NCBI GenBank assembly: GCA_963680875.1
Contig: OY804579.1
Span: 24,103,804-24,167,803 of the forward strand
Direction: 5' to 3'
Source of the DNA: Bathymodiolus brooksi
Taxonomy: Eukaryota; Mollusca; Bivalvia; Mytilida; Modiolidae
DNA: 64,000 nucleotides
Position 1 is the stretch's first letter; each line of letters opens with the position of its first letter. Shown here one piece after another: positions 30,501 through 33,500 of this stretch. The translations under genes were made by a program, and so were the position numbers. The notes below the pieces were generated by a model. It was not told where the DNA came from, ran no database searches, and saw only the letters and a program-made list of their open reading frames with translations.

Positions 30501-33500
30501 TATACAATTTTAATCAAACAACTAATATATAAAAAAAAAATATAAATATGAACAGGACATCATATGATACGCAATATTCCGCAACTAGATTGTTATAGTA
30601 AAATGTATAATTATGTCTTCTTTGATACAACAACAATTGTTTCAAAAAATGTTGTCAATTTCTTTTCCTTAGAAACTGTGGATCCGTGTACTGGAAAATC
30701 TAAGAACAAGGCAGAATTCGGACTAACAGCTACTTCCGGTATGGCGGATGTTTTATGTATGTTTTGTCAGCACATCAAGAATTTACAGTGTATTTGGCAG
30801 TTTTGTTCCCACCCGGAAGGAGTATATAAAATCAAAGTCAGCAACAGTAAAGGCTGACATTTAAACATATATAGTTATGCTTAAGCTACAAACTTCAGTA
30901 AAGATTGACATTAGTTAACTTACATTGTCTTGTCATTAACTTCAGTTAAGATTGTTAATTGACTGTTTTGTAGCCAATGGTTAACTGTAAACATCGTAGT
31001 TATTTTGACTATATCTGTATCATTTTGTGGAAATAATTAGATTTATTATATGTAATTTAACTTTTATTTTTCCTTATGGCATTGTCTTGTGTTATCATGT
31101 CCGTCGCTTAAGCTTGCACGAATTTGATCGATTTCAAATATACGGAGATCTGTTCAATTTTTATTGCTTTAAGATTTGTCCAAGTTTATTTAATAGTTTC
31201 ACTTCTGTGCATCACATCTGATGATTGGTTATTTAACGCCGTCTGTCACGGGAGACAGTAATGGTAAAACATAAGTAGGGGTGATAATTTTAGAAAAATA
31301 TCCAATAAACTATTTTGGTTCCATGTTATAGACTGTTGTGTCAAACAAGCAACTTGTATATGTATCTGTTTTATTACTGTTTATGCGTCTCATAAAACTA
31401 TTGGCTGTTTATTAGACACATATTTGATAACTCATCAGATTCCAAATAGTTTCACAAAATATAATTATTAACATCGGAATGCATAAGAAAATCATTGTAA
31501 GTTAATAACCATTACAATAAAGTTATCTTGCTTTCTTATTTTTGGTTTCTATCATTTTTCTTTGGCATTCGCCACCATTTATTTCTATGGAAACCCGTAT
31601 ATTTTTTCAGCATCATTTTACTATTGTTTGTGAAAATATATTTTAAACTTACCATCAGACTGATAAAACGGAGTTGTATATGGACAGTTGTTTTTTGGTT
31701 TTTATCATTTTCCTTGAGCATTCGTCGTGATTTATTTTTTATGGAAAACCTAACATTTCTTTCAACATCATTTCACTACTGTTTATTAAAAAATAGTTTC
31801 AACTTACTATCAGACTGATAAAACGGAGTTGTATATGGACAGTTATTTTTTTTGCTTCTAGGCTATTTCTTCAGCATTCTCCACCATTTGTTCCTTTGAA
31901 AAACCTTACAGTTCTTTCAACACCAGTTCACTATTGTTTTTAATAATATAGTTTTAGCTTACCATTAGATTGATCAAACGGAGTTGATGTATGTGGACAG
32001 TTCCATCGTTTTAACTTACCATCAGACTGATCAAACGGAGTAGATGTATGTGGACAGTTCCATAGTATTAACTTACCATCAGATTGATCAAACGGAGTTG
32101 ATGTATGTGGACAGTTCCATCGTTTTAACTTACCATCAGACTGATCAAACGGAGTAGATGTATGTGGACAGTTCCATAGTATTAATTTACCATCAGACTG
32201 ATCAAACGGAGTAGATGTATGTGGACAGTTCCATAGTTTTAACTTACCATCAGACTGATCAAACGGAGTTGATGTATGTGGACAGTTCCATAGTTTTAAC
32301 TTACCATCAGACTGATCAAACGGAGTAGATGTATGTGGACAGTTCCATAGTTTTAACTTACCATCAGATTGATCAAACGGAGTTGATGTATGTGGACAGT
32401 TCCATAGTATTAACTTACCATCAGATTGATCAAACGGAGTAGATGTATGTGGACAGTTCCATAGTTTTAACTTACCATCTGACTGATCAAACGGAGTAGA
32501 TGTATGTGGACAGTTCCATAGTTTTAACTTACCATCAGATTGATCAAACGGAGTTGATGTATGTGGACAGTTCCATAGTATTAACTTACCATCAGATTGA
32601 TCAAACGGGGTTGATGTATGTGGACAGTTCCATAGTTTTAACTTACCATCAGATTGATCAAACGGAGTAGATGTATGTGGACAGTTCCATAGTATTAACT
32701 TACCATCAGACTGATCAAACGGAGTAGATGTATGTGGACAGTTCCATAGTTTTAACTTACCATCAGATTGATCAAACGGAGTTGATGTATGTGGACAGTT
32801 CCATAGTTTTAACTTACCATCAGACTGATCAAACGGAGTAGATGTATGTGGACAGTTCCATCTCTCCCATTTAAACTGATACTGACATTCCACTTGTGCC
32901 TTAATCGTCCCTCTCTTAACGCTCTCTAATATCCTTTCTTCAATCTAAATGGAAATTTTAATGATATTCTGAAAATGTTTCTTTGAATCTCCTTTGTATG
33001 CTTTTTATTCTTTTTTAATACCACTAATAAAAATCCGTAGATATCAAATGTAATGCGCACGACTAACTTAGGCATGAAAAAAAAACTTATACAACAAAAA
33101 ACTACATAAATTTTAGGGTATGAATTATGCTCATTATTGAATACCATATTATGACTGTGAAATGTAGAACTGCAATAAAAGCTCTGTTGCTTAACATTGA
33201 TTTGTGTTTATTTATAAAATAAGACAGTCGCACATGTTCATTTACACCCATGTCCTTTATTATTGTATTATTTACACCCATGTCCTTTATTATTTTATCA
33301 TTTACACCCATGTCCTTTATTATTTTATTATTTACACCCATGTCCTTTATTATTTTATTATGCTTAACGCCACTTTGTCCTTTATTACTAATAAAGCATG
33401 AGTGAAACTAACAAATATATAAATAATTTGTTTGTCACTGGTACTTATCTAAATTATTCATTAATGTTCTTTTCCAATGATACACTATTTAAATGTCATA

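Follow-up and report, generated by a model that had tools for sequence, protein, structure and literature searches.

Sixteen in-phase splice donors in tandem at the end of a Wnt8 exon of Bathymodiolus brooksi, probably a tolerated minisatellite

The Wnt8 gene of the bivalve Bathymodiolus brooksi ends its third exon not with one splice donor but with a tandem array of sixteen, each of which could join the next exon in frame. The question that this locus raises is whether such an array serves the gene as a source of alternative ligands, or whether it is a repeat that has grown across a splice junction and is tolerated there. The answer depends on the anatomy of the gene, the strength and likely use of the donors, the variation among the repeat units and the history of the array, which are taken in turn below for the window, i.e. 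the whole 64,000-nucleotide stretch of DNA that was analysed.

The minus strand of the window holds a complete Wnt8 coding sequence in six exons that sum to 1,056 nt (351 codons plus stop), and all of the coding exons are intact. The sequence is nearest to Wnt8, with Wnt-8a (E 9e-81) and Wnt-8 (5.3e-79) as the best PDB matches. Among the matches listed (120 of 316), the closest protein is P0001 (94% identity, no name), which has the same length of 351 residues, and the best named protein is a Wnt-8a-like protein of Mytilus trossulus (79%); P0003 (99%, 168 aa) is listed as a product of the window itself and was left out as a relative. The exons and the array are placed as follows.

36859..36929, minus strand: Wnt8 exon 1 (MQFSYVWIV...SKSW), located by tblastn of P0001, boundaries read from the sequence
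33669..33759, minus strand: Wnt8 exon 2, located by tblastn of P0001 and P0002, boundaries read likewise
32818..32944, minus strand: Wnt8 exon 3 ending at donor 1, 127 nt, zero extra modules
31949..32860, minus strand: array of 16 x 57 bp, each unit made of the 43 nt of the exon 3 end and 14 nt of the intron start
25957..26082, minus strand: Wnt8 exon 4, with an acceptor in phase with each of the 16 donors
25407..25549, minus strand: Wnt8 exon 5
24078..24575, minus strand: Wnt8 exon 6 including the stop codon

Intron 3 contains two further items of interest, a transposase frame at 28777-29493 (minus strand) with a Tc3-type helix-turn-helix match (PF01498, E 5e-15) and, on the strand opposite to Wnt8, a possible nested gene at 26911-28118 (plus strand) that was judged by eye from its frames; two fragments of the latter were tested and have no Pfam match at E 0.01.

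An earlier sequence-only reading of the locus had described sixteen repeats with a 57-bp period at the end of Wnt8 exon 3, and both TRF (31948-32861, period 57, 16.0 copies, 95% matches, score 1639) and a unit-by-unit listing agree with it; the mean identity across the 16 units is 95.8%. The first donor GT lies at 32817 and the others follow every 57 bp (32760 and so on) to the last at 31962. The dinucleotide is kept in all 16 units, as GTAAGT in 14 of them, GTAAAT in unit 12 and GTAAGC in unit 16, precisely the tally given by that reading. Every unit translates without a stop as WNCPHTSTPFDQS(D/N)GKL(K/I)(L/R), and the open frame that spans the array runs from 31940 to 32944 and closes at a stop shortly past unit 16. 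Exon 4 begins at 26082 with GT after ...ATTACAG, so that each of the 16 donors completes an identical G|GT glycine codon in frame; the claim that the copies are phase-matched, free of stops and capable in principle of adding 0-15 modules of 19 residues is borne out. Depending on the donor, exon 3 would measure 127 nt (donor 1) or 184-982 nt (later donors). In a Pfam profile search of the array frame the Wnt match (residues 3-36) is alone in having a stretch that passes; the matches to Adeno_shaft, Rieske and others, three of which exceed the curated cut-off, have no stretch that passes alone and were taken as noise from repeat composition.

How strong are these donors, and which of them is likely to be used? 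The computed duplex with U1 has an energy of -9.1 kcal/mol for 14 of the 16 array donors, -8.0 for unit 16 and -5.3 for unit 12, and the corresponding values for the donors of exons 1, 2, 4 and 5 are -8.0, -4.5, -5.1 and -7.9 kcal/mol. Among the 770 other GT sites in the Wnt8 gene, four equal the U1 pairing of the array donors, including one at 31652 in an older copy described below. Since 14 of the array donors outpair the other four donors of the gene, the spare copies should compete for the spliceosome, and nothing noticed in the sequence would be expected to silence them. Exon definition favours the shorter exon, and for this reason donor 1, with an exon of 127 nt rather than 184-982 nt, should have the advantage. 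In test constructs with duplicated strong donors the intron-proximal site can reportedly win, and the ratio of donor use is therefore not predictable with certainty. Most likely donor 1 gives rise to the main mRNA, accompanied by low-level use of the next donors, while dominant use of the distant donors is unlikely.

The protein record bears on the same point. P0001 reads ...WNCPYTSTPFDQSDGTREASF across the junction, i.e. it has zero extra modules, and it is probably derived from an mRNA because its 1,212-base contig fits 351 codons and not the five introns found in the window (a retrocopy is possible). The ladder of isoforms that the sequence-only reading had envisaged thus finds no support in what is probably the transcript product of a relative; as that relative may or may not carry the array, its zero-module form need not speak for the gene described here. 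When proteins were searched with the complete array frame, with scoring of the 7,994 candidates that had the most words in common with it (eligible lengths 0.55-1.75 times the query), no protein with repeated modules was found, the one match being P0001 by its single copy.

The modules would be inserted in the loop that follows the WNC cysteine of Wnt8, with one additional cysteine per module. This loop was measured in 89 of the 120 Wnt8 homologues listed out of 316 matches, the other 31 falling off the measuring pattern, and spans 12-19 residues from the WNC cysteine to the next conserved motif in 86 of the 89. Long loops occur in the remaining three, P0092 (46), P0005 (83) and P0049 (89), of which P0049 and P0092 have predicted insertions; the repeated module is absent from all three. 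In P0005, a predicted Wnt8 isoform of Ostrea edulis, the SLNK...RWNC segment, corresponding by homology to exons 2-3, occurs twice in tandem.

The units differ from one another at nine variable sites. Five of these lie in the exon part, where four are synonymous and the sole amino-acid change sits in the last unit, and four lie in the intron part, where two are synonymous and two nonsynonymous (K>I in five units, L>R in two). In a post hoc test with sites counted as events, exonic nonsynonymous sites amount to 1 of 9 against an expectation of 57-61% (P 0.003-0.007 across transition weights of 1 to 4). Two readings of this bias are available: the units may be copied from, or convert through, the single coding position, or several units may serve as exon ends at some frequency. 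The former is simpler because the intron part, whose translation any use of distal donors would entail, shows no conservation at the protein level. The lack of stops across the array was considered as a sign of selection and rejected as evidence, the chance of no stop being 0.63-0.65 with nine variable sites; the matched phase and the retained GTs can be accounted for by recent duplication of a unit of 57 bp (3 x 19). Three common variable sites occur in seven of their eight possible combinations, and the presence of four gametes at all three site pairs reveals exchange or conversion between the 57-bp units.

Traces of what is probably an earlier stage are preserved deeper in the intron.

31541..31850, minus strand: two older copies of 155 bp, each with a part that resembles the exon end and a stretch of intron, outside the open frame, from the 155-bp TRF row and alignments

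The donor-like sites of these copies lie at 31807 (ATA|GTAAGT, U1 pairing -5.6 kcal/mol) and 31652 (ATG|GTAAGT, -9.1 kcal/mol), and the stop that follows soon after unit 16 makes both unreachable in frame. Compared with the 57-bp units, the older copies have in common a 3-nt deletion and an Asp-to-Tyr change, and they encode Tyr where units 1-16 have His. P0001 likewise has Tyr at this position, from which it would seem that the 155-bp copies retain the older state. Between the two older copies the exon-derived parts differ at one of 37 columns and the remainder at 25 of 114 (permutation P 0.0035, post hoc); the same test on the other two copy pairs is not significant (P 0.29 and 0.24). The simplest order of events would place the 155-bp duplications before the 57-bp amplification.

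Taken together, the array is best explained, and in our judgement probably, as a tolerated minisatellite that has spread over the donor of exon 3 in a Wnt8 gene that is otherwise intact and whose main product should be normal, perhaps with some leaky isoforms. A segment comprising the exon end and part of the intron would first have been duplicated in tandem at 155-bp spacing; a 57-bp sub-segment would later have been amplified to 16 copies and homogenised by unequal exchange or conversion. Use of donor 1 would yield the ordinary Wnt8 mRNA, with the downstream copies leaving together with the intron. The array may be tolerated for just this reason, as all copies past donor 1 can be removed as intron and would be splice-neutral if donor 1 wins. 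By analogy with human IFI6, a minority of messages is likely to carry one additional 19-residue module or a few of them, given that the donors are near-equal in strength and in phase. The near-synonymous variation of the exon part counts against full neutrality unless the units derive recently from the coding unit or convert through it.

It is unlikely that the array instead operates as a functional switch, in which splicing makes substantial, or regulated, use of several donors to produce a family of Wnt8 ligands with zero to several cysteine-bearing modules. The sixteen donors are in phase and stop-free and 14 of them have equal computed U1 pairing, changes in the exonic portion of the units are synonymous at all sites but one, and the length of the Wnt8 loop is variable, three of the 89 homologues (P0049, P0092 and P0005) having long insertions, all of which would fit such a role. 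Yet P0001 has zero extra modules and the array-frame search returned no protein with repeated modules, the intron part that would have to be translated has two nonsynonymous changes (K>I and L>R), each module would add one cysteine and exon 3 would reach up to 982 nt. A more elaborate form of this reading, in which donor choice, perhaps tuned by the balance of splicing factors together with a heritable unit number, sets the count of cysteine modules and selection maintains the exon part of the units, appears quite improbable; if true, donor choice would make a length-polymorphic Wnt morphogen ligand with a varied N-terminal domain. About equally improbable is a role as an intronic U1 platform, in which the extra donors remain unspliced and recruit U1 snRNP, thereby aiding the definition of exon 3 or shielding the 6.7-kb intron from premature polyadenylation. 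That few sites of the gene match U1 as well as the array donors (4 of the 770 other GT sites do so), that both older copies keep GTAAGT and that their exon-derived parts have so few differences (1/37 compared with 25/114 in the rest) is consistent with this idea, whereas arrays are common in the window with or without donors, and the excess of conservation fails to reach significance in the two remaining pairs (P 0.29 and 0.24).

The most doubtful of the alternatives is that the array is an artefact of the assembly and that in reality exon 3 has just one end or the units are far less numerous. The unit number of tandem arrays is often misassembled, as is generally known, but here the unit variants occur in a non-periodic order with only five of 120 unit pairs identical, the older 155-bp copies flank the array, and the assembly comprises 136 contigs for 2.0 Gb, with contigs of up to 176 Mb. 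Differences between the units and the contiguity of the assembly both argue against simple assembly stutter, and the tolerated minisatellite remains the preferred explanation.

Donor arrays of this kind have precedents. The minisatellite of the human IFI6 (6-16) gene consists of 26 repeats of 12 nt and begins near the end of exon 2. The Wnt8 locus resembles it in that a minisatellite supplies donors: the array runs from the exon end into the intron, its units are donor-like, and the unit (57 nt) is in frame and without a stop. It differs in that IFI6 is an interferon-induced human gene with a shorter unit, while the Wnt8 array has units of 57 bp that bring a cysteine, belongs to a bivalve, and consists of potential donors read from sequence. 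The IFI6 minisatellite 'provides multiple splice donor sites' in the words of a title (Turri 1995) cited in PMC2572611, PMC4526556, PMC2915984 and PMC3618361, and according to one of these, two downstream repeat units act as donors and give three mRNA species (PMC4526556). The polyubiquitin gene UBC is described as a tandem array of dual-specific splice sites in which splicing alters the unit number and RT-PCR gives a ladder (PMC10809524). Both systems have tandem in-frame units bounded by splice sites; the UBC sites read AGGT and can function as either donor or acceptor, whereas the Wnt8 junction is ATG|GT in all 16 units. UBC-type dual sites were accordingly considered for the Wnt8 array and rejected, with no AGGT at the junctions and ATG before the GT in 16 of 16.

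Boundary repeats also alter gene structure in human segmental-duplication genes, where internal tandem repeats lie at exon-intron boundaries and 66% of intron modifications also have transcripts in which the repeat is retained as exon (PMC2812944). Those cases concern recent paralogues and new introns, whereas Wnt8 is a single gene that has kept its intron and gained donors. Intron gain by tandem genomic duplication, in which the duplication supplies the splice signals (PMC4974935), likewise differs, as a new intron arises there and the Wnt8 duplication spans an existing donor. The sequence-only reading had held such donor arrays to be, to its knowledge, an undescribed feature, which was mistaken: the IFI6/6-16 minisatellite donors have been in print since 1995, and UBC provides a further tandem array. 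A literature search of open-licence papers found no report of wnt8 with tandem-repeat splice donors, nor any paper on minisatellite alternative splicing with a donor in each repeat. The kind of array is thus already known from IFI6 and UBC, and the Wnt8 member, for which no report was found, is striking as a Wnt gene.

The significance of the locus lies in the test that nature provides here of which donor the spliceosome takes when offered many that are near-identical, evenly spaced and ordered, in a gene where a wrong choice should harm; thanks to the unit variants, many of the donors in use could be distinguished from cDNA. The locus further suggests how potential isoforms may accumulate in a conserved developmental gene of a repeat-prone genome, cheaply because the spare copies land in an intron.

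In the window, TRF arrays merge into 22 intervals that make up 32.4% of the sequence, with a coverage of 13.2% inside the Wnt8 gene and 37.2% outside it. Around the Wnt matches of the genome the coverage is 5.5% (39 loci, 134 kb, some overlapping; 38 other loci plus the exon 6 region of the window), from which it follows that the stretch is unusually repeat-rich. Only one of 37 other Wnt regions (L019) has a TRF array over its Pfam match (period at least 10, at least three copies). At 1441-1526 of this locus (G000:C18, near 74270700), three acceptor copies, each an intron end plus an exon start, stand in tandem with 28-bp spacing; as 28 is not a multiple of three, acceptors 1 and 2 cannot serve the frame of acceptor 3. 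Duplication across a splice junction is thus found elsewhere in the Wnt family too, where it serves no evident purpose in making isoforms. When 43 Wnt exon regions (six of the Wnt8 gene and 37 others) were scanned for copies, the array came up along with three short matches of 22-23 bp (E 0.002 to 0.39), and the acceptor triplet that TRF had detected was missed.

A dispersed copy of window 25852-26465, the exon 4 region of Wnt8, lies at 4257-4882 of another locus (L022, G000:C4, near 48410300) with 94.4% identity over 628 columns and one Cys read as Ser. This locus was rejected as a second Wnt8 gene that could have served as a control, no other Wnt8 exon being found in the 8.9 kb examined there; its tandem repeat at 2027-2101 lies clear of the exon match at 4357-4512. 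Stretches next to the copy also resemble 9.0-9.7 kb and 23.1-23.8 kb of the window, which looks as though a mobile repeat had carried the copy along. Within the window, a 38-bp satellite occupies 1-8468 with about 223 copies (97% matches) and extends up to the window edge, and further large arrays are found at 51589-54517 (53 bp x 55), 57648-59826 (14 bp x 156) and 61203-62472 (44 bp x 29).
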